Assembly (NCBI GenBank): GCA_016800925.1
Contig: JABCPU010000022.1
Span: 62,001 to 126,000 of the forward strand
Direction: 5' to 3'
Length of the DNA stretch: 64,000 nt
Source of the DNA: Suillus spraguei
Taxonomy: Eukaryota; Basidiomycota; Agaricomycetes; Boletales; Suillaceae
Part shown: piece after piece, positions 21,531-62,723 of the stretch
Numbering within the stretch: the stretch's first letter is position 1
Layout: each line of letters begins with the position of its first letter
Made by a program: the position numbers and the translations under genes
The notes under the pieces: model-generated
Seen by the model: the letters and a program-made list of their open reading frames with translations, nothing else
Told to the model about the DNA's origin: nothing
Databases searched by the model: none

Positions 21531-22960
21531 TAATAGGAACGAGCTTGCTAAGATACCATAAGGCTCGCTTGAGAAATCCCTAACCTCTCCACTATTACAT
21601 GTGCACCTGAGCACCTCCAAGGTGTGTTTAAGCATGTACATGATTAAGCACAATGAAGCGTGACAAAACACAATGAAGCAGGGTCAAACGCAAAAGGCGT
21701 GGGAAAGGCACAGTGAGGTGCACACTTCGCCAAAGGTGCGAACTCATCTGGTTTTGTCAGTAAGGGGGTGATGCCACAAGCAGGATTTGTGATATGTATC
21801 CGATGATTCCAAAGCCATTCATATCCCACACGCCAACAGTCCAGGACCCGAGAACTAAGACTAAGAAAGCACTCATCAAAACATAACATGTGTTACACAC
21901 CCCCATTGACCAATTGATGATTTCGTTTCAAACCAAGATATAAGTACCCCAGGATCTCTACAACAAACCTTAATTATGTCATCCAGCAAGATGACATGGT
22001 AAGTAGCATAAGAATTTTGTTCTATTGCACGTAATTTCGTAGTGTCCTACTGTAGTTCTCACGGCTACCATATTGATTTGAACGAGTCTACATTGTAATC
22101 ATCCCAATTCATGCTCAGCTTGGACCATAGTATATTGCTTTACATCACTTGATATTACTTCATATTGTTTTATAATGTCATATCGAGGAAAGGTGCACTT
22201 TGGCTGGGAATATCTGAGTCTCGCCAGTTTACTGATGGGCCCCGACTCAGTGCCATGTGGTATTTGCACTGCTTGTGATGTTGTTTCATTCATGCGGTTA
22301 CTGCATTCCTGGCTAATAAATTTTTTGTACAAGTTTCACTTGAACTACATGCAGTGCTACACTTTGAGTGAGAACGTGTTGCTGCTTCCTCTTGTGGTGC
22401 AGTTGAGTAGCATCAAGGCGGTGTCATAGCCTTAGGTAAATTTGTTGGGGACTGACAGACAGTGAATTGAGTTCTGTGGTTGTTGCATTTTGTTCTAGCC
22501 ATCACCTTAAAGAACGTTCCGAACAACTATCTTCTTGAGTAGTCTTACTACGTATTCCTCATATTCTAGTAAGTAATAACATGTAGCAGCGCATGACAAG
22601 TGAACATGACTCAGTGTCAAAGAGTCATCAGTATCATTTGCACTGTCAACTGGGCCCTCATAGAGGCTCGTGCTAGCTGGACAACCAGAATGGATTCCGA
22701 ACCCTAATATCATCACAGTACCAGATGATAACCAAGGACGCTGGGTCTGCCGTAAAAAGAGCGAGACTTGAACTGGGATTTCGAGACTTGAATTGGGATT
22801 GTATTACATGGGCATACAACATCTCAGTAATTCAAGTGACTTTCGGGTAAGGCTGGAGTGACGCCAGACCTAGAACAACAAATGAATTCCGCATAAATAA
22901 GACATACTATGGCTAGCTTACCTGCGTAGTGCCTGGTGTCAAGTTCACTACCCATCATAA
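21531..22960. other. No recognisable gene
   Basis: Short open frames only (plus 22175-22429, minus 22507-22716), without known motifs. Confidence 0.4.
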
Positions 22961-23254
22961 TCAAAGATTGGCGTCATGTTCCTCGTACTTCTGCTCGTCA
23001 TATCCATTGTAATTGAAGAGACCGAAATCATGTTCCTCGCGCGTCTGCTCATCATATTCACTGTAATTGAAAAGATTAGAGTCACGTTCCTTGCGCTTCT
23101 CCACATCTGGCAGCAAGTTGCACTTATCAACCTTAGCATGGCAATGAAGTCATGAATACTCACTGGAACGTTTTGCAATAGTGTCTTGTGTGGGGCACGC
23201 CGTGGCAAGAACCACGATAGATGTGAGCATGCTGAAGATAAGAGACAGCTTCAT
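22961..23254 (-). CDS. Small secreted peptide precursor with Lys-Arg sites and 18-residue repeats
   Basis: The two-exon minus-strand gene has its ATG at 23254. A 57-nt intron (donor GTGAGT near 23172, acceptor CTGCCAG) joins in phase 1, and the TGA ends at 22961. The 78-residue product starts with a signal peptide (MKLSLIFSMLTSIVVLATA), then has Lys-Arg at residues 28-29 and 34-35, the usual Kex2 cleavage sites. It continues with two tandem 18-residue units sharing LFNY, YDEQ and E-(R/H)-D (residues 37-54 and 55-72) and the first six residues of a third. This layout fits fungal Kex2-processed repeat peptides, which include RiPP-like and signalling precursors. No maturation gene is adjacent. 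The intron lies between the two Lys-Arg sites. Confidence 0.65.
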
Positions 23255-24921
23255 GTCTGAGTTAAGAGATGCAACTGGTTACAGTACTTTGCTGATGGAT
23301 TGGATTAGAATATTCAAGCAGGTTTTATATCTCTTCAAAGTTCATAGGTGGGATATGATATGGAATTTCATAGGTAGGGTATGACATCCGGGGTTGACCT
23401 GATACCCACACCTGACCTGCGGGTACCAAAATTTTCGGAAGCTTACCCATACTTACCCAGGTCAGAGGATCACTATGTGCCAAACCTTCTCCATATGACC
23501 ATCATTCTTCCTCTAGTAAGTAGACGAAAATTATATGATGGAATGAGGATAAAGCGTACCGTATGAGAATAAATAAGACACAAGTAAGCATGATGAAAGT
23601 CGGGCACATCAAATGTGATATAATACGGAATTGCAATGGCATACAATACTTGAAATGAAATTGATGATTGACTTAGCATCTGTGCACGGCGAGGAAGAAA
23701 TAATTTGAAAGAAAACCACTCCTGCTATTTTCAATATTTTTGTGGTTATTCGAATCTGATTATCTTGATCGATTGGGGCGAGGAATGTAGCAGAGGTTGG
23801 ATGCTCCAAGAAAGGGAGCAATACCGAGGAGGCCGAGGACTGATCGAAACTCCGACAAGTCAACTCACAACTTTCAAGGCAGACTTGACTGTCCCTCCGC
23901 TGTGTGTCTGACTTATGAGGACAGTCGCAACAATGCCTCCTTTCCGAGAATCTCAGCATGGTGCGAGTGCGAATCAATGCGCTCACTACCAATAGCTCTT
24001 ATGTCCCAGCACAACTCGAACCTCAGGAGGATCGACAATGTCGTCGATATCTTGAACTACACACCAGGATCCTGATACTAAGCAATGGAGTCATTGTCGT
24101 CGGTCGCTGGCAGCAGGCTCCTGGATTCAGCATCCAGTCGTTAAATTTGATGCGCTCACATTTCATAAGACACGCTATAATGTAAGTCGGTTTATCCTTT
24201 GTTCCACGATGGCGTCGTCTATCGGTTCTTGAGAAGACGCATCTTGATTCCAGAATATGATCCGCACGATATCATATGAGTAAGAGTGAGAATGGGTTTT
24301 GACTGTCACCTACACAGAGCAGGGGCCAATGCTGAATTTATATTGAATAATGCACCGAGTTTGTAAAACATCAACTCAGAGCCATGGTCATATCATGATG
24401 CACATCGCACGCTGTCCCTGAAAATCAATGTGCGTCCGCTACTCAAAGTCTATCGAGTTTGAAGGCCATCTTCCGCTCGCAGCCAGGTCTTTTCAGAGAT
24501 CTCATTCATCATGCAACCAGCTGGAGTCAGCGATGTTCTCAGGAACGTTTGAGTTCATGTGTCTACATAGAGTTTATAAGGTTAAACTGACCATAACAAA
24601 GTGGTGCAGGTTGAAACAGGGACTAACTCAACCTTGATGTACTTGAAATTGGACCGCGGATACATGAGAGGTACATCAAATGCAGTAGCTCTCGTCACCA
24701 TCTCGACTGAGGACGACCAACATTCTCCAAACACGTATAAGCCATACCAGACAAAGCACATATTGCGTGACTATACAACCATTTCGTACAGTTCCACATC
24801 CTGAATCTACCTCGACAGACCTTTCAAGCAACCTGCATCCACACCTAAGCTCCACTCCAAACCGGATCATCATTTATGTCGTTGCATCGCCGACGTTAAG
24901 GTCTCGCTGAAGACAAGCAGA
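23255..24921. other. No recognisable gene
   Basis: Several open frames of 65-127 codons exist on both strands (for example minus 23609-23992, plus 23797-24075). None has a known motif or clear exon structure. Confidence 0.4.
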
Positions 24922-27900
24922 TCAGTGGGATACTGCCAGGACATAACAGCTAAACATACACAGGCGATGCTCTAGAATGATTTCAACGATTCTGCTGGCC
25001 AACTCGTCTTGAGAGTCACGAACAGATTGTTTTCCCTTCTTATGGAAGCGTCCAAATAGTAGTTTGGCTTTCCAAGTAAACGAGTTTCCTTGGCATGCGT
25101 GGACCGCTTTCCTCACAGCTTCCCTCACAGCAGCGGCATGCGGAGACGCAATGTACCGCTCGAGAGCGACATTAAAAGAAGGAACAGACTTCTGGCTGTC
25201 CGGAAGATAGCGTTGCTTGTCGAAAATGTAGAAAGAGTGTTCAAAGATAATGGCAGCGGCTAAATGATCGATAATAAGCAGGTTCGTCGCAACGTAGCCT
25301 CGAAATTCACCAGAAATGAGTTGAACATCGGTCTCCGAGGGTGTTGAGCCAGAGACCTGGCACATTCGCAACATGAGAAATGTGTACAATTTGTGACTAA
25401 TTAGACACACCACAGAGAGTAACCTAGACTGCATGTCTGCGCACTGTTCCCGAGAAATCTGGTCAAACAATGATGGAAAATTGAAAATCGTCCACTCTGC
25501 TGAGGATCGATACACTCACTTTCTGCCAATGTGTAGCATCTTCATTCAGCATGGCCCAAAGTCAAAGGAGGATAAAGAAACCAACCTCCTATTGATGGAT
25601 CAGCGATATCGTTTGCAAGCAAGACTCTAAGATAAAAAAACTCACACACTGTTGAGGGACGTGCGATTTCAGTAGTAAGCAAAACTCAAACTCAACAGAA
25701 GATCAGCACACTAACATGCTGTGAGTAGATGAGCCATGGGATTGGGATTGGTGAGCAAGGCTGACGCTCGATTGGTGTGAAGAGACTCACCACCTGTCAA
25801 TCGATCAGCGACACTTGAGCTCAACCGTAGATGAACACTACTCACGTGCTGTCAATGGGAATCGGCAATGTCATTGGTCAGTGATACTCAAATTCGACTG
25901 CGGATCATTGTGCTTACACTCTGTCAATGGATGGGCAACGCGTCAGTCAGTATGATTCGAGTTCAATACTGGATGGACCAACTCACAAGCTGTTAACGAA
26001 GCAGCAATGTTTTCGGTCAGTATAGACCATAGCGTCAGGGCGACGGAGAATCAATACACTCACACCCTGACAATAGATCAGGGAGCACATCAATGAGGAA
26101 GATAGGAAGTCGGCAGAAAATGATCGCACTCACAAGCTGTCAAGAGATCAATGATTTGTTCTGTGAGTGGCTCAAGGTCGGTAGAAGATCAATGTACTGA
26201 CCTCCTGCCGAGAGATCGTCGATTGCTTGAGTCAGAAATTCTTACACTTAATAAATGATGGGCTCACTCACATCCTATCAACAAACGGGAGATGGCTTGA
26301 TTGAGAACGGCTCGAGCTCCAAGGAGGATTGACACACTCACAGCCTGCGAAGAGTGGGCAAGGACTTGGATCAGCATCGCTCGAGCTCGAAGGAGGATCG
26401 ACACACTCACAGCCTGCGAAGAGTGGGCAAGGACTTGGATCAGCATCGCTCGAGCTCGAAGGAGGATCGACACACTCACAGCCTGCGAAGAGTGGGCAAC
26501 AACTTGGATCAGCATCGCTCGAGCTCGAAGGAGGATCGACACACTCACAGCCTGCGAAGAGTGGGCAAGGACTTGGATCAGCATCGCTCGAGCTCGAAGG
26601 AGGATCGACACACTCACATACTGCGAAGATGCGAAGAGTGGGCAAGGACTTGGATCAGCATCGCTCGAGCTCGAAGGAGGATTGACACACTCACAGCCTG
26701 CGAAGAGTGGGCAAGGACTTGGATCAGCATCGCTCGAGCTCGAAGGAGGGTCGACACACTCACATCCTGCGAAGAGTGGGCAAGGACTTGGATCAGCATC
26801 GCTCGAGCTCGAAGGAGGATCGACACACTCACAGCCTGCGAAGAGTGGGCAAGGACTTGGATCAGCATCGCTCGAGCTCGAAGGAGGATCGACACACTCA
26901 CATCCTGCGAAGAGTGGGCAAGGACTTGGATCAGCATCGCTCGAGCTCGAAGGAGGATCGACAAACTCACAGCCTGCGAAGAGTGGGCAACGACTTGGAT
27001 CAGCATCGCTCGAGCTCGAAGGAGGATCGACACACTCACACGCTGCGAAGATGCGAAGAGTGGGCAAGGACTTGGATCAGCATCGCTCGAGCTCGAAGGA
27101 GGATTGACACACTCACAGCCTGCGAAGAGTGGGCAACGACTTGGATCAGCATCGCTCGAGCTCGAAGGAGGATCGACACACTCACACGCTGCGAAGATGC
27201 GAAGAGTGGGCAAGGACTTGGATCAGCATCGCTCGAGCTCGAAGGAGGATTGACACACTCACAGCCTGCGAAGAGTGGGCAAGGACTTCGATCAGCATCG
27301 CTCGAGCTTGAAGGAGGATCGACACACTCATATCCTGCGAAGAGTGGGCAAGGACTTGGATCAGCATCGCTCGAGCTCGAAGGAGGATTGACACACTCAC
27401 AGCCTGCGAAGAGTGGGCAAGGACTTGGATCAGCATCGCTCGAGCTCGAAGGAGGATCGACACACTCACATCCTGCGAAGAGTGGGCAAGGACTTGGATC
27501 AGCATCGCTCGAGCTCGAAGGAGGATTGACACACTCACAGCCTGCGAAGAGTGGGCAAAGACTTGGATCAGCATCGTTCGAGCTCGAAGGAGGATCGACA
27601 GACTCACACGCTGCGAAGATGCGAAGAGTGGGCAAGGACTTGGATCAGCATCGCTCGAGCTCGAAGGAGGATTGACACACTCACAGCCTGCGAAGAGTGG
27701 GCAAGGACTTGGATCAGCATCGCTCGAGCTCGAAGGAGGATCGACACACTCACAACCTGCGAAGAGTGGGCAAGGACTTGGATCAGCATCGCTCGAGCTC
27801 GAAGGAGGATTGACACACTCACAGCCTGCGAAGAGTGGATAAGGACTTGGATCAGCATCGCTCGAGCTCGAAGGAGGATCGACACACTCACATACTGCGA

Positions 27901-30900
27901 AGAGTGGGCAAGGACTTGGATCAGCATCGCTCGAGCTCGAAGGAGGATCGACACACTCACATACTGCGAAGAGTGGGCAAGGACTTGGATCAGCATCGCT
28001 CGAGCTCGAAGGAGGATCGACACACTCACAAGCTGCAAAGAGTGGGCAAGGACTTTGATCAGCATCGCTCGAGCTCGAAGGAGGATCGACACACTCACAA
28101 GCTGCAAAGAGTGGGCAAGGACTTGGATCAGCATCGCTCGAGCTCGAAGGAGGATCGACACACTCACAAGCTGCAAAGAGTGGGCAAGGACTTGGATCAG
28201 CATCGCTCGAGCTCGAAGGAGGATCGACACACTCACAAGCTGCAAAGAGTGGGCAAGGACTTGGATCAGCATCGCTCGAGCTCGAAGGAGGATCGACACA
28301 CTCACAGCCTGCGAAGAGTGGGCAAGGACTTGGATCAGCATCGCTCGAGCTCGAAGGAGGATCGACACACTCACATACTGCGAAGAGTGGGCAAGGACTT
28401 GGATCAGCATCGCTCGAGCTCGAAGGAGGATCGACACACTCACACGCTGCGAAGATGCGAAGAGTGGGCAAGGACTTGGATCAGCATCGCCCGAGCTCGA
28501 AGGAGGATCGACACACTCACACGCTGCGAAGATGCGAAGAGTGGGCAAGGACTTGGATCAGCATCGCTCGAGCTCGAAGGAGGATTGACACACTCACAGC
28601 CTGCGAAGAGTGGGGCAAGGACTTGGATCAGCATCGCTCGAGCTCGAAGGAGGATTGACACACTCACAGCCTGCGAAGAGTGGGTAAGGACTTGAATCAG
28701 CATCGCTCGAGCTCGAAGGAGGATCGACACACTCACACGCTGCGAAGATGCGAAGAGTGGGCAAGGACTTGGATCAGCATCGCTCGAGCTCGAAGGAGGA
28801 TCGACACACACACATACTGCGAAGAGTGGGCAAGGACTTGGATCAGCATCGCTCGAGCTCGAAGGAGGATCGACACACTCACAAGCTGCAAAGAGTGGGC
28901 AAGGACTTGGATCAGCATCGCTCGAGCTCGAAGGAGGATCGACACACTCACACGCTGCGAAGATGCGAAGAGTGGGGCAAGGACTTGGATCAGCATCGCT
29001 CGAGCTCGAAGGACGATCGACACACTCACATACTGCGAAGAGTGGGCAAGGACTTGGATCAGCATCGCTCGAGCTCGAAGGAGGATCGACACACTCACAG
29101 CCTGCGAAGAGTGGGCAAGGACTTGGATCAGCATCGCTCGAGCTCGAAGGAGGATCGACACACTCACAGCCTGCGAAGAGTGGGCAAGGACTTGGATCAG
29201 CATCGCTCGAGCTCGAAGGAGGATCGACACACTCACAGCCTGCGAAGAGTGGGCAAGGACTTGGATCAGCATCGCTCGAGCTCGAAGGAGGATTGACACA
29301 CTCACACGCTGCGAAGATGCGAAGAATGGGCAAGGACTTGGATCAGCATCGCTCGAGCTCGAAGGAGGATCGACACACTCACATCCTGCGAAGAGTGGGC
29401 AAGGACTTGGATCAGCATCGCTAGAGCTCGAAGGAGGATTGACACACTCACAGCCTGCGAAGAGTGGGCAAGGACTTGGATCAGCATCGCTCGAGCTCGA
29501 AGGAGGATCGACACACTCACAAGCTGCAAAGAGTGGGCAAGGACTTGGATCAGCATCGCTCGAGCTCGAAGGAGGATCGACACACTCACACCCTGCGAAG
29601 AGTGGGCAAGGACTTGGATCAACATCGCTCGAGCTCGAAGGAGGATGGACACACTCACAGCCTGCGAAGAGTGGGCAACGACTTGGATCAGCATCGCTCG
29701 AGCTCGAAGGAGGATGGACACACTCACAGCCTGCGAAGAGTGGGCAAGGACTTGGATCAGCATCGCTCGAGCTCGAAGGAGGATCGACACACTCACAAGC
29801 TGCAAAGAGTGGCAAGGACTTGGATCAGCATCGCTCGAGCTCGAAGGAGGATCGACACACTCACATCCTGCGAAGAGTGGGCAAGGACTTGGATCAGCAT
29901 CGCTCGAGCTCGAAGGACGATCGACACACTCACAGCCTGCGAAGAGTGGGCAAGGACTTGGATCAGCATCGCTCGAGCTCGAAGGAGGATCGACACACTC
30001 ACACGCTGCGAAGATGCGAAGAGTGGGCAAGGACTTGGATCAGCATCGCTCGAGCTCGAAGGAGGATCGACACACTCACAGCCTGCGAAGAGTGGGCAAG
30101 GACTTGGATCAGCATCGCTCGAGCTCGAAGGAGGATCGACACACTCACATCCTGCGAAGAGTGGGCAATGACCTGGATCAGCATCGCTCGAGCTCGAAGG
30201 AGGATCGACACACTCACATACTGCGAAGAGTGGGCAAGGACTTGGATCAGCATCGCTCGAGCTCGAAGGAGGATCGACACACTCACACGCTGCGAAGATG
30301 CGAAGAGTGGGCAAGGACTTGGATCAACATCGCTCGAGCTCGAAGGAGGATCGACACACTCACAGCCTGCGAAGAGTGGGCAAGGACTTGGATCAGCATC
30401 GCTCGAGCTCGAAGGAGGATCGACACACTCACATACTGCGAAGAGTGGGCAAGGACCTGGATCAGCATCGCTCGAGCTCGAAGGAGGATCGACACACTCA
30501 CACGCTGCGAAGATGCGAAGAGTGGGCAAGGACTTGGATCAACATCGCTCGAGCTCGAAGGAGGATGGACACACTCACAGCCTGCGAAAGAGTGGGCAAG
30601 GACTTGGATCAGCATCGCTCGAGCTCGAAGGACGATCGACACACTCACATACTGCGAAGAGTGGGCAAGGACTTGGATCAGCATCGCTCGAGCTCGAAGG
30701 AGGATCGACACACTCACAGCCTGCGAAGAGTGGGCAAGGACTTGGATCAGCATCGCTCGAGCTCGAAGGAGGATCGACACACTCACATACTGCGAAGAGT
30801 GGGCAAGGACTTGGATCAGCATCGCTCGAGCTCGATGGAGGATCGACACACTCACATCCTGCGAAGAGTGGGCAAGGACTTGGATCAGCATCGCTCGAGC

Positions 30901-32866
30901 TCGAAGGAGGATCGACACACTCACAACCTGCGAAGAGTGGGCAAGGACTTGGATCAGCATCGCTCGAGCTCGAAGGAGGATCGACACACTCACATACTGC
31001 GAAGAGTGGGCAAGGACTTGGATCAGCATCGCTCGAGCTCGAAGGAGGATCGACACACTCACACGCTGCGAAGATGCGAAGAGTGGGCAAGGACTTCGAT
31101 CAGCATCGCTCGAGCTCGAAGGAGGATCGACACACTCACATACTGCGAAGAGTGGGCAAGGACTTGGATCAGCATCGCTCGAGCTCGAAGGAGGATCGAC
31201 ACACTCACACGCTGCGAAGATGCGAAGAGTGGGCAAGGACTTGGATCAGCATCGCTCGAGCTCGGAGGAGGATCGACACACTCACATACTGCGAAGAGTG
31301 GGCAAGGACTTGGATCAGCATCGCTCGAGCTCGAAGGAGGATCGACACACTCACACGCTGCGAAGATGCGAAGAGTGGGCAAGGACTTGGATCAGCATCG
31401 CTCGAGCTCGAAGGAGGGTCGACACACTCACATCCTGCGAAGAGTGGGCAAGGACTTGGATCAGCATCGCTCGAGCTCGAAGGAGGATCGACACACTCAC
31501 ATCCTGCGAAGAGTGGGCAAGGACTTGGATCAGCATCGCTCGAGCTGGAAGGAGGATCGACACACTCACATCCTGCGAAGAGTGGGCAAGGACTTGGATC
31601 AGCATAACTCCATGGGATTAATCAGCATACCATCTGCAAGTAAAAGCCCAAACATAAATGAGAATGACCTTCAAATTTTCTGATAATCTTACAGAAATAT
31701 GTGGAAACCAGAGACTGCATCTGGCTATTAACCTCTCATTCAATTCCTCAGTTGTCTCAGCTGGGTGCAAGAGGTAAGGCAGTATGCTAGACGATATCAA
31801 TCGTCAACGCTTGTGGCGAGGTAAATGAGACGATGGGTAGTTACCGCTCAACTGCATATTTCATGCAGAGCTCCAAGTTGATCTGCTGCGTTGAGACGAA
31901 TAATTGCTGAAGCACGTCGCTATCCAGAGTTCCAGCTGTGCGTTCGATGAGTGGTCCACAATCTGCATCATCCTTGTCCATGTCTAATGGATCAATGGTC
32001 ATTATGTATCACAACTTGACTATCATTTAGCTTACTGGGAAGGCATACATGGCATTTTGGAGGCCACCGGACACCCTTGAGAAACTTCAATTGCGGCCCA
32101 TTAGCAAATGACTCCTCGGCGTGTGTCGGGGCCAGCGCTCGAGCGTCTTTTATTGATTTTCCCTTTGATTTTAGCTCTCCGTAGGCGACATCGTAGAAGG
32201 CATCGAACTTGGTAAATAATATTATCACAGGGACTGAGGATTGTGAGTTTGCGCATCAGTTGAACATCAACTAAAGTCGCTTACTGCGTCCTGTGTCACA
32301 CTGGGAAAAAAATTTGTCTTCACCTGCAGTGAACGATCTGCTTGCCTCGTCCATCGGGATGCAATACCTGTGTTAAAATGTGAGATGGCACACGTCGTGA
32401 TTGATCAATTACAATTACCATATAGCATGGAGTTGGTTTTTTAGTTTGGCTTCCTTAGAACGGCGCGCGATAAATTCCTTGACCTTGTCAAATTCGGATT
32501 CGCCGCCCGCCTCAAACCCACGTGAATCATGGAAGACGAACCCGGGTTGCTTGGGAACACTAATTCATTCTCGATATCGTGCTCTCCACGCTGAGAGTAT
32601 GTCAATTCATGTCATCAACCAAGAGCACACCTCAATACCTCTCTGGATGGATCTAAAACTGCAGGGTCGACCTGATGTTAATGGGTTAGTAGTGATCACT
32701 GCCACCCTCTTACTAGCGCGCACCTTTTTCCAGCGCAGTCATAGATTACTGGATTCTCCCGAGAATTGCAAACCCTCCGGAGAATGGTAGTCTTTCCCGC
32801 ATTTGCTCTTCCTATAGTGAGGATTCGAAAGCGACCGATTTTCTCCTTTATCTCTGAAGGATCCAT
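24922..32866 (-). CDS. G-domain (P-loop GTPase-like) protein gene with an array of 3-nt exons
   Basis: The minus-strand host gene starts at ATG 32866. Exons read by eye are 32714-32866, 32639-32671, 32419-32590, 32285-32367, 32036-32233, 31845-31983 and 31693-31786. They encode a small G domain with P-loop GRANAGKTT, G3 DSRGFE and G4 TKFD, followed by ALAPTHAEESFANGPQLKF, QQINLELCMKYAVER and HPAETTEELNERL. Exon 7 ends in phase 0 with donor GTAAGA. About 88 candidate micro-exons of 3 nt follow (31631 down to 25520), then a C-terminal exon from 25459 in phase 0. That exon has FRGYVATNLLIIDHLAAAIIFEH and SPHAAAVREAVRKA, with a stop at 24922. Related G-domain proteins are abundant in Agaricomycetes with unknown function. 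Exon 3 is one nucleotide short between ENELVF and GFVFHDSRG, so either the allele is broken or the assembly has an error in the CCC/CCCGGG run. That the C-terminal exon belongs to the same gene is inferred from strand, phase and family-like sequence. Confidence 0.75.
25520..26274 (-). repeat. Twelve diverged micro-exon units
   Basis: Downstream of the core array the intron sequences become unrelated, but each unit still has an exact AG-NNN-GT junction. The exons are GAT 26272-26274, GAG 26202-26204, CTT 26134-26136, GGT 26064-26066, CTT 25987-25989, AGT 25918-25920, CAC 25845-25847, GTG 25791-25793, CAT 25716-25718, TGT 25646-25648, GAG 25586-25588 and AAA 25520-25522. Donors are GTGAGT in most, and GTCAGT, GTAAGC, GTTAGT and GTTGGT in single cases. 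Introns are about 57-72 nt. The last intron (25460-25519) ends at CAG before the C-terminal exon. Confidence 0.85.
26342..31572 (-). repeat. Homogenised intron/micro-exon array, 75 units of 69 or 77 bp
   Basis: Tandem units run from 26342 to 31605. On the minus strand each unit reads acceptor TTCGCAG (or TTTGCAG), a 3-nt exon, donor GTGAGTGTG, a GAGCTCGAGC palindrome, branch-like GATGCTGATCC, and the next acceptor. The standard unit is 69 bp, giving a 66-nt intron. Fifteen units are 77 bp because ATCTTCGC is duplicated just before the acceptor. By my count the micro-exons are 27 GCT, 14 CGT, 13 TAT, 11 GAT, 7 CTT, 2 GTT and 1 GGT. Donor GT is kept in 74 of 75 units (lost at about 27331). Introns are nearly identical across the array. 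Confidence 0.9.
31631..31633 (-). other. Candidate micro-exon 1 (ATG)
   Basis: The first 3-nt exon after G-domain exon 7. Its acceptor is ACTTGCAG and its donor is GTATGC. The preceding intron is 31634-31692 (59 nt) and the following one is 31573-31630 (58 nt). Confidence 0.6.
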
Positions 32867-55035: not shown

Positions 55036-55800
55036 ACCAAAGTATGGAGTTTGGTGCAGTGAAGGGCATAAGCAATGAAATGGGGAAGATGATGAAGGGG
55101 GATGCTCTGGACAGGTAAAAAGATGGGTAATAAACCGCGCGCATAAACGAGAAACCTGCTCACCATGTTTGCACAACAGGAATATAATCTGCAGTTGAAG
55201 GGGAGGCAGTTTGGTGTGGTGAAGGGCATAAGCAATGAAATGAGGAAGCTCTACTTGGGAGTTAGATGACAAAGGGGGATACTCTGGACAGGTAAAAAGA
55301 TGGGTAATGAACCGCATGCATAAATGGGAAGCCTACTTACCATATTTGCACAACAGGAATACAATCTGCAGTTGAATGGGAGATAGTTTGGTGCGGTGAA
55401 GGGCATAAGCGATGAAATGGGGAAGCTTTACTTGGGAGTTAGATGATGAAGGGGGATACTCTGGACAGGTACAAAGATGGGTAATGAACCGCATGCATAA
55501 ATGGGAAGCCTACTCACCATGTTTGCACAACAGGAATACAATCTGCAGTTGAATGGGAGACATAAGATGTGGTGGTGGGTGAGACAAAGAAACAGACTCA
55601 CCAGTTAATTAACAAGCTGATGAGCGGCCAATTAACAGAAGATGTGGTAATGATGGGTGAGTGCAAGGGTTTGCACAACAGGAATACAATCTGCAGTTGA
55701 ATGGGAGACATAAGGCGTGATGACGGGTGAGAATGTGAGTCTGGACAAGGAAAAAGATGGGTAATGGACCATGCAGATAAACAGGAAACCCACTCATGAC
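55036..55800 (+). repeat. Tandem repeat, ~165-180 bp unit
   Basis: GTGAAGGGCATAAGC, GGACAGGTA, AAAGATGGGTAAT, TTTGCACAACAGGAATA and AATCTGCAGTTGAA recur in the same order three to four times between 55036 and 55700, with a shorter final copy. It is non-coding by appearance. Confidence 0.85.
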
Positions 55801-60521: not shown

Positions 60522-62723
60522 TAATATTGGTCAACGGTTGTAGACAAGAAATACTTGGATGAGGTTGAAGATAAAACGTATCTCAGGATAGACAAGTGAT
60601 TAAATAGATAGAGGTTAGTGGTACTATACTGACAGTATAATTGGAACTGGATGACAGGTGTGATAATCGGAAAGCTAGAACTCATCCGGTTACTCCAAGA
60701 CTAATCCCTGTTCGATTAGTTCAAGTTGCACGGATCGATCATAACGGCTGTCATCGTGAAAGTTACCGTCACATACCCAGTCTTGGGAGTAACTTGAAGC
60801 TATCATTACGCAGTTAGCCATTTACTGAGTCACTATTGCAGCAATGTGCTCACCATCGTGCCTCTCATTGTCATCGACCAAGAGGTGTAACTTGTAGTAC
60901 TATACTACTAGTGTCCCCTGGGTAGACCTTTATATAGAACGAAGTATGAAGTCGAGTTCGAATTTGAATATGCCATAGACTTGCGTGATAGAGCCTAACA
61001 GTGACTTGAAACTCCGCGAAAGCTAAGGTTAAAGTATTGGGTGACTTTCCGTAGGATTTGAAGTCCTAGATTTCTTTCTAAACCTTATCAACGGAGTTTT
61101 GGCTAAGTCTGCAGAGAAATTATCCGTAACTCATTTGAAGCACGAGACAAACATATAGTCGTAGGACCCAGATTAGAGTTTGGTTTTTAACAGGCGGAGT
61201 GTGAAAAATCGCGTAAAATGATATCGGCTTGTCGGCACAAAGACGTTTCTACGGCGACTTTTCACTCAGGGACTATCCATTTATGTCTAGTACTGCCATT
61301 AGTCCGTTGTGCGCTAAGATGAGATGACTAAATAATTGTATGATACGTGGTCTATTGTATACGTTCTCGCCCGTGTGAAGCTGCACAAAGACTAGCATAG
61401 AAATGACTAGACCAGTGACAACTCGCCGTGTGCACATCTGAAACTGTGACTCCTTCATCCTGCACTGATACAATCCAAAATCGTACATTTCTACTCTTGG
61501 AACGGAGACGGACTGCAAGGCATACCAAAGGCCAAACCTCTATAGCTGAGGTGGCGCTTTCTGGAGGACCGACTGACTATGAGCCAGGACTCCTGCCAGT
61601 GCTAGACATCTGGCACTCCCTAGGACCTGCGCCAGACCACCCTGCTACACTGTCTCCACCCTGCTCAACACAAACCCAGGTCACTTATTAGCATCCCGGC
61701 ACTGAACGGAGGTGATACTCCTCGTTGAAGCGGCGCCCCTGCTAATTATCCACTACACATCAAGCACATGTGCCTAGATGCCTCCCCGTACTGTCGCACA
61801 CCAGATTAGGGCACCGCATGGCGTCTTGAGCTAATACTGACGGTTCCAAGAACCGTCAGGAACATGAGTAAACAGAAGTACCTGAGCCACGTTACTCTTT
61901 TCTTCTCGTCCAGAATGCGTTACTAGTGCATCAAGTTTATTTTTGTAAAGTTGGGTGGGCTTATTTGAGCATCGTACTGACAATTTGGGCCCTTTGAGCC
62001 TGAGGAAACAGACCTATTTGTGCCACTCCGGACTCGGCGGGAATTGAAAAGCAAACGGGATGGAACACTGACAGAACAGGGTCAACGTTTCACGTCCTGA
62101 GCCACCACTGGGTCCTAGATCCGGATGACAGCGACCATCGATGGTGCGATATTATCAGTGATGGAAGATGAAAATAGAATGTACCCTCTTATCTCGTACT
62201 CGAATCTACCGAACAGCGAGTTTTGAGTTGACGTGGGTCAGGGGTGCCTAATCAATCCATGGTGCGAACCAGTGCAACCGACCTGGGAGATGCTGAGGAG
62301 GCGAAGAGGGTGGAGAGCAGTCAGATATCTGACAGCCTCGGCGAATGTGACCAGCAGGTGCGCTTGAAGAGGGCCAGGAGGACCCAGTCCTATCCCTGCA
62401 ACGTCCGCGAAGGTCAACAGCTGAAATGTATCTTTTTTGTTGGTGGCGTCCTTAAGTCGTGAGCCTTGGTGCATTTTGGATGCTTCCACTGGAAAAACCT
62501 AGACATGGTTGATGTCAGTTAGAAGCAAGTAAGAAGGCGGAAAGAAGGCCCAACGGACAATAAACACTGATAATAATAATAAAACATAGCACCGTAGATT
62601 AGTCACATCTACGTTTGACATAACTTATGTAAACCAATACCAGCAGGAATAAATAAAAGCAAATTCTCCTGCTGTTCCTGCGGAGCACTTGACGATCATT
62701 AGCTCCACCGAACATCTTCCATG
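60522..62723. other. Intergenic, with a Harbinger terminus
   Basis: No gene is seen. At 60810-60890 a stretch (GTTAGCCAT.., then CTCATTGTCATCGAC) resembles the inner part of the KDZ element 2 terminal repeat. At 61035 the Harbinger terminus GGGTGACTTTCC recurs with its subterminal TAGGATTTGAAG and TAAACCTTAT. A minus frame at 62238-62489 has no known motif. Confidence 0.45.
61035..61110 (+). repeat. Third Harbinger-family terminus
   Basis: GGGTGACTTTCCGTAGGATTT followed by TCTAAACCTTAT matches the ends at 19035 and 50697. No coding sequence follows, so this is a remnant or a non-autonomous copy. Confidence 0.6.

Follow-up and report, generated by a model that had tools for sequence, protein, structure and literature searches.

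Tandem one-codon exons predicted in a likely G-domain gene of Suillus spraguei would encode a hypervariable linker

The stretch of DNA analysed here, hereafter the window, comprises 64,000 nucleotides (nt) of contig JABCPU010000022.1 of the basidiomycete Suillus spraguei (positions 62,001 to 126,000), and on its minus strand lies a long tandem array of what appear to be complete short introns separated by single codons. Our analysis makes it highly probable that this array belongs to a likely G-domain gene whose 88 predicted one-codon exons are spliced singly into a hypervariable linker, located between the G domain and the C-terminal part of the protein. Judging from the sequences, it is very likely that one-codon exons are spliced in this G-domain family. 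The one-codon reading, first put forward in an initial annotation of the window, is borne out by the spacing of the splice sites, by the sister genes, and by linkers that lie in register in intron-free proteins of relatives; the splicing of the window copy itself is predicted.

The array extends from 31633 to 25520 and contains 75 near-identical units, preceded by a single ATG unit and followed by 12 diverged ones, the same arrangement that the initial annotation had claimed and that was recovered both by Tandem Repeats Finder (a 69-nt unit in 75 copies at 26310-31605) and by our count of junctions. The first predicted exon (ATG, 31631-31633) follows a 59-nt intron, the core of 75 exons with near-identical introns occupies 26342-31572, and the tail of 12 exons, which keeps the YAG-N3-GT spacing, occupies 25520-26274. 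Exactly YAG-NNN-GT, and hence a 3-nt exon, was present in 87 of the 88 units, with junctions from 31633 to 25522. The single exception is a core unit at 27332-27334 in which the donor is AT instead of GT (GAT, then ATGAGT), and whose exon would be skipped in frame; the statement that the introns always lie exactly 3 nt apart holds for every unit but this one. The distance from junction to junction was 69 nt in 55 cases, 77 nt in 15, 70 nt in six and 68 nt in two, with seven single values of 55-78 nt and one double gap of 138 nt. Splice signals were counted in the 86 stretches between canonical junctions: the donor was GTGAGT in 80, the acceptor was CAG in 84 and TAG in two, and a branch-like YTRAY preceded the acceptor in 83. 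A GTGAGT donor and a branch-like site had been ascribed to every unit, which is correct for most of the array and not for the remainder. Core introns are mostly 66 nt long, the 74-nt variants having an added 8-nt duplication, and the core codons are GCT, CGT, TAT, GAT, CTT, GTT and GGT.

The tail is the informative part of the array because its introns have diverged. Its codons, GAT GAG CTT GGT CTT AGT CAC GTG CAT TGT GAG AAA, encode DELGLSHVHCEK. The motif YAG-N3-GTNRGY was found 12 times in the 819 nt of the 12-unit tail, compared with a mean of 0.08 and a maximum of 2 in 2,000 shuffles. No such motif was detected in the 819-nt tail at spacings of 0, 1, 2, 4, 5, 6 or 8-12, and the two found at spacing 7 were each a second reading of a 3-nt site with another GT after its donor.

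The exons on either side of the array, all on the minus strand, indicate the kind of gene in which it resides. Upstream are exons 1 and 2 (32639-32866), which include the P-loop GRANAGKT, exons 3 to 6 of the G domain (32590-32419, 32367-32285, 32233-32036 and 31983-31845, spanning 31845-32590) and exon 7 (31693-31786), which ends in WFPHIS. The first exon past the array (25411-25458) encodes the 16 residues ISREQCADMQSRLLSV and is followed by C-terminal exons at 24961-25356, the first at 25356-25311 and the next starting at 25259 past a predicted 51-nt intron; the extreme 3' end is approximate. The exon past the array had been placed one base too high, at 25459, and we correct its start to 25458, so that a single intron spanning the whole array would end at 25459. 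That the preceding exon ends in phase 0 was confirmed in an intact paralogue, L010, in which seven exons, the last equivalent to exon 7, form an open 288-residue G part that ends in phase 0, and the C-terminal exons past the array are open and in phase 0. When the L010 protein was scanned against Pfam (E up to 1), the best match was MMR_HSR1 (E 0.0071, 16.9 bits, below the cut-off of 21.9), and neither NACHT nor ANK was matched. From its sequence, the host gene likely encodes a GTP-binding protein. Among deposited S. spraguei proteins, P0001 is 100% identical to the L010 protein across the 62% covered, and P0009, compared by eye, is in agreement with the window copy and ends short of the array.

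The window array is one of many in the genome. We obtained at least 43 genome matches (97 candidates, 40 scored), of which 25 regions were retrieved (20 + 5), and a pattern of the intron core with up to two mismatches matched the genome 486 times, compared with 0 matches for the reversed pattern. Sister arrays have G-domain exons before them and C-terminal exons after them. Those adjoining G-domain exons contain about 14 to 88 codons, and their codon strings differ; many paralogues with differing variable parts are what an expanded, fast-diversifying family presents. Spacing was counted in nine gene-context arrays (the window, L010, L011, L012, L014, L015, L017, L018 and L028) and in eight gene-less arrays (L020-L027), leaving aside the haplotig partners L009, L013 and L016, the short L019, and L029-L033. 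The nine gene-context arrays contained 336 motifs at spacing 3, three at spacing 2 and none at 0, 1, 4, 5 or 6. A further 10 motifs at spacing 7, two at 9 and two at 11 represented additional readings around 3-nt sites, except for one true 9-nt exon in L018; this tail exon, AACTTGAAC, is in frame with 9 nt instead of 3. The gene-less arrays, close copies of one another with no G-domain or C-terminal exons in the retrieved stretch, contained 1-nt exons and lost acceptors alongside 3-nt exons. A segment of about 1.7 kb in L021 recurs in L023, L024, L025 and L027 at 97-98% identity with sharp common ends, and no terminal repeat was evident by eye on this shared segment. The dispersed gene-less arrays look as if a mobile element had captured a piece of an array.

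Evidence at the level of RNA came from proteins of related species. We read 66 of the 131 database proteins listed as matches; of those read, 14 are encoded on short contigs (jgi or lgn) of 931 to 2,295 bases. The short-contig entries are almost certainly spliced RNA, since they run unbroken across the S. spraguei intron positions. By eye, seven of the 14 span the linker and four seem to keep an array intron, while P0118 seems to end inside a kept first intron and P0022 and P0026 end before the array. Five of the seven spanning entries could be registered on the 16-residue C-terminal exon, and in all five the linker is located between WFPH(I/V)x and that exon: 30 residues in P0006 (ARYYYDDVRDLDVLDLLRDLDVLLLLKREK), 37 in P0121 (ADGFRRDDLRFVSSIRFLSDDRFSLSRDLRFDFKREE), 24 in P0122 (VWDHHRRGIIDRDELGIQFTKRDD), eight in P0124 (AIEFQREN) and four in P0125 (ADDV). 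The flanks of P0121 and P0124 are nearly the same, with 35 of 39 residues identical before the linker and 57 of 60 after it, whereas the linkers themselves (37 versus 8 residues) have little in common beyond the first A and an RE near the end. The last 12 linker residues of P0122, DELGIQFTKRDD, are in register with the tail codons of the window: both have DELG plus eight residues or codons, and in both the next exon then closes after 16 residues, an agreement observed post hoc. The seven residues encoded by the window core (A, D, R, Y, L, V and G) account for 27 of 30 residues in the linker of P0006, 22 of 23 in P0014 and all four in P0125, and for 22 of 37 in P0121, 13 of 24 in P0122 and 2 of 8 in P0124; their background in four whole family proteins is 41-46%.

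Other entries appear to be partly spliced (all read by eye). P0014 ends in VRY-E-VSFF, which corresponds to GAG plus the intron GTTAGTTTCTTC, as in the penultimate unit of L010. P0035 and P0103 seem to retain an array intron after one or a few codons, and P0128 seems to begin within one. Of the deposited models in this set of 66 entries, most end once the array is reached or within it. A similar intron unit is present in translated form in the models of S. bovinus (P0029), S. subluteus (P0021), S. cothurnatus (P0054) and S. clintonianus (P0131), and some models from other Suillus have two codons between units, P0131 and P0029 being suggestive of 6-nt exons. Related arrays therefore exist in other Suillus species, and six-base exons may occur in them.

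We compared the variation of codons with that of introns. In 54 units of the window core, diversity at the three codon positions was 0.62, 0.75 and 0.00, and intron sites had a mean of 0.019 and a maximum of 0.21; in 29 units of L015 the codon positions gave 0.67, 0.67 and 0.66, and the intron mean was 0.005. In a test that counted distinct states per site and so discounted copied units, codon sites were more changed than intron sites in nine of ten arrays (binomial P 0.01 to 2e-7), the exception being L014 (P 0.26). The ten arrays are not independent, as L015 and L029 are haplotigs and the window, L010, L011 and L012 are close kin. Every core codon of the window is NNT, and therefore each codon difference alters the amino acid; this NNT-only variation would fit diversifying selection, as a pattern and not as a formal test. 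Arrays also differ between haplotypes: on the haplotigs C432 and C888 a neighbouring gene is 99% identical over 8.1 kb and the surroundings of the G-domain gene are 95-96% identical, and the haplotig arrays L015 and L029 have 31 and 15 codons, respectively, in a different order. In the tails, the window and L017, counted back from the array end, share 21 of 36 exon bases, and their intron interiors are 72% alike. A general conservation of tail codons had been suggested by five tail units anchored on GAG CTT, and it disappeared without the anchor. We conclude that the tail preserves the exact 3-nt spacing and not codon identity.

The array could operate as follows. Under intron definition, the spliceosome would excise the short introns singly, and with each removal a codon would become the terminal triplet of the exon, ahead of the following donor. 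Introns this alike would invite unequal exchange or conversion, by which whole codons would be gained, lost or reordered without a shift of frame; the linker would thereby change quickly between copies and haplotypes, and skipped units would yield further in-frame isoforms. The least certain step concerns function: the linker may serve for recognition, as a loop in a GTPase family that has expanded and is possibly related to immunity or symbiosis, a role that we propose by parallel with the proposal made for the mini-exon NLR (NOD-like receptor) genes of truffles. In an AlphaFold model of P0006, with a mean predicted local distance difference test (pLDDT) score of 72, the linker corresponds to residues 293-322 between the G domain and the C-terminal helices. 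Residues 296-318 scored below 50, and we therefore make no claim about the shape of the linker; the C-terminal part is predicted to be helical.

Different readings of the array have to be weighed against single-codon splicing. The whole array could be one 6.2-kb intron, with the internal sites as decoys or as steps of recursive splicing and with no linker in the product. The phase-0 flanks of L010 would permit this, and P0002, P0003, P0004 and P0007 are nearly devoid of a linker; however, the intron-free entries have in-register linkers of 4-37 residues, one of them matching the tail codons, and other entries retain single array introns beside joined codons. We regard such an intron as an improbable account of the array, although giant-intron or stepwise removal may occur as a further isoform or route. 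The array might instead be an ordinary minisatellite within a dead gene, resembling splice sites only because it descends from a single founding intron; this would agree with the apparent frameshifts of the window copy (see below), with the existence of gene-less copies and with tail codons that are overall unconserved. It would not account for exact 3-nt exons in both the window and L017 despite the divergence of their tail introns, for codon sites that outchange intron sites in nine of ten arrays, or for linkers in spliced relatives; moreover, decay to 1-nt exons and lost acceptors is seen in the gene-less copies, which are, however, closely similar among themselves. We consider this reading very improbable.

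The array might also code, unspliced, for a repeat of 23 residues, namely VSVSILLRARAMLIQVLAHSSQ and one variable residue. Most core introns are stop-free at 66 nt, with an in-frame stop in none of the 74 core introns of the window; 29 of the 30 introns of L015 are divisible by three and none has a stop, and one or more units are translated in the deposited models P0029, P0021 and P0131. On the other hand, 18 of the 74 window core introns break the frame, so that read-through would meet 37 stops, and L010, L014, L017, L018 and L028 each have 7 to 20 introns with in-frame stops. The splice-site spacing is kept in the diverged tail and the repeat is absent from spliced products. The frame breaks and stops led us to reject the coding repeat for most copies, and its overall chance of being right is slight. 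Finally, the introns could be the product, each carrying a small RNA as in host genes of small nucleolar RNAs, with the 3-nt exons as by-products. Core introns are indeed more uniform than the exons, but those of the tail are diverged, the linker specified by the exons is translated in relatives, and a search of 25400-31800 gave no Rfam match to a known small RNA family at E up to 1; this explanation is practically negligible.

Several observations weigh against single-codon splicing as the account of the window. Relative to L010, the window copy seems to have lost one base at each of two sites, in exon 1 near 32723, where it has one A fewer, and in exon 3 near 32540; it is either a decayed copy or carries assembly errors within short runs of bases. 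This weakens what can be said of the window copy taken by itself, and not what is said of the family. Among the protein matches listed there was no transcript of an S. spraguei copy, that of the window included, and the identification of the jgi and lgn entries as spliced RNA is one that we infer from short contigs and absent introns. The near-direct joins in the models P0002, P0003, P0004 and P0007, with only about 0-4 residues between the flanks, mean that large skips, array-free genes or annotation shortcuts exist. Tail codons are overall no better conserved than tail introns, save for GAG CTT GGT, which is present in five of six tails when these are aligned on GAG CTT (L014 has GAG CTT AGT). 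The absence of stop codons from all 348 exons is uninformative (0.58 expected in 66 tail codons, P(0)=0.56), and we do not use it as evidence because composition alone predicts few stops. Exons of 2 nt were found in the gene-context arrays L009 (four), L010 (one), L012 (two) and L013 (four), an acceptor is lost in L014 and in L016, and L011 has at least two broken units. The 2-nt exons may stem from sequencing indels, since the coding exons of L009 and L012 show frame jumps too. The haplotigs L014 and L016 (on C432 and C888) have the same 43 codons with several one-base differences in length, a sign that some contigs contain sequencing indels and a reason for caution before broken units are taken as real. 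The recognition role of the linker, lastly, is something that we infer.

The window has other repeats. At 22961-23254 on the minus strand we noted a gene for a small predicted secreted protein (MKLSLIFSMLTSIVVLATACPTQ...) with KR sites and a 54-bp tandem repeat at 22963-23107; by its look only, it presumably resembles Kex2-processed repeat proteins. L011 matches the window at 99% across 22822-23633. A 177-bp unit is repeated 2.7 times, with 91% matches, at 55087-55562.

Codon-sized exon arrays are a known kind, as judged from passages on the nank (NACHT-ankyrin) genes of Tuber melanosporum, which describe dozens or tens of alternatively spliced 3-bp mini-exons (Iotti et al. 2012, as cited in PMC4986451, PMC9815663, PMC3689799 and PMC10197012). 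The remark in the initial annotation that no such array is known from any organism does not survive these reports. As far as those passages go, the truffle genes share with the Suillus gene dozens of codon-sized exons, membership of an expanded nucleotide-binding family and an ectomycorrhizal fungus as host; with 87 of its 88 units in this form, the window gene would likewise have dozens of 3-bp exons in tandem, its splicing being predicted. The truffle mini-exons are held, in the same passages, to diversify the recognition part, the role that we suggest here. The differences are also clear. T. melanosporum is an ascomycete whose genes are described as NLRs in which a diversified C-terminal sensor accompanies NACHT and ankyrin domains, whereas Suillus is a basidiomycete, its G-domain protein gave no NACHT or ankyrin match, and its variable part is an internal linker. 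The Suillus array has up to 88 units with near-identical tandem introns; for the truffle, the comparison extends to the described exons alone. Repeat arrays of fungal NLRs are reported, in the parts of PMC9815663 and PMC10197012 that treat them, to be reshuffled by unequal crossing-over, and like the Suillus units they are near-identical, differ at a few hypervariable positions and are exchanged between copies. In those NLRs the repeat itself is described as protein-coding, whereas in Suillus the uniform repeat is the intron and only the variable codon is kept.

In a Foldseek search with the P0006 model, the best PDB folds were immunity-related GTPases (Irga6/IIGP1), which like the modelled protein have a G domain followed by helices; the match is weak (template modelling score 0.3-0.4, E ~2e-4) and the model is of the moderate pLDDT given above. 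No immunity-related GTPase family was matched in the Pfam scan of the L010 protein (E up to 1), and no dedicated search was made. Micro-exons are not known in immunity-related GTPases. The micro-exon genes of Schistosoma, reportedly described by DeMarco and colleagues in 2010, are said to have many short exons in multiples of three, so that, as in the present case, skipping keeps the frame and varies the protein; unlike those of Suillus, their exons are reportedly mostly longer than one codon and the genes encode secreted proteins. Among the host-specific unique genes reported for Suillus on pine roots are some labelled 'GTPase P-loop' (PMC5065116). We found no report of an array of this kind from Suillus or another basidiomycete in the open-licence literature. 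Within that literature, what seems to be new is its occurrence in a basidiomycete, in a G-domain family with no NACHT or ankyrin match, in an internal linker, and with near-identical tandem introns in up to 88 units.

If the proposed splicing is true, every codon of a protein segment is its own exon, and the array tests how the spliceosome handles dozens of successive introns with only 3-nt exons between them. It would provide a frame-proof route to the diversification of a protein residue by residue, and more such exons may be hidden, because gene callers and short-read aligners can miss them. A wider proposal, which we offer tentatively and hold to be somewhat short of an even chance, is that the Suillus introns serve as recombination spacers with which a G-domain family found across the genus builds up a hypervariable recognition loop residue after residue. 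Exchange between identical introns would insert, delete and reorder single codons at no risk to the frame, splicing among dozens of equal sites would generate combinatorial isoforms, and the family would be an independent counterpart, in a basidiomycete, to the mini-exon receptors of truffles, tied to ectomycorrhizal life. The finding, if true, suggests that distant ectomycorrhizal lineages, a bolete and a truffle, reached codon-sized exon arrays in different nucleotide-binding proteins.

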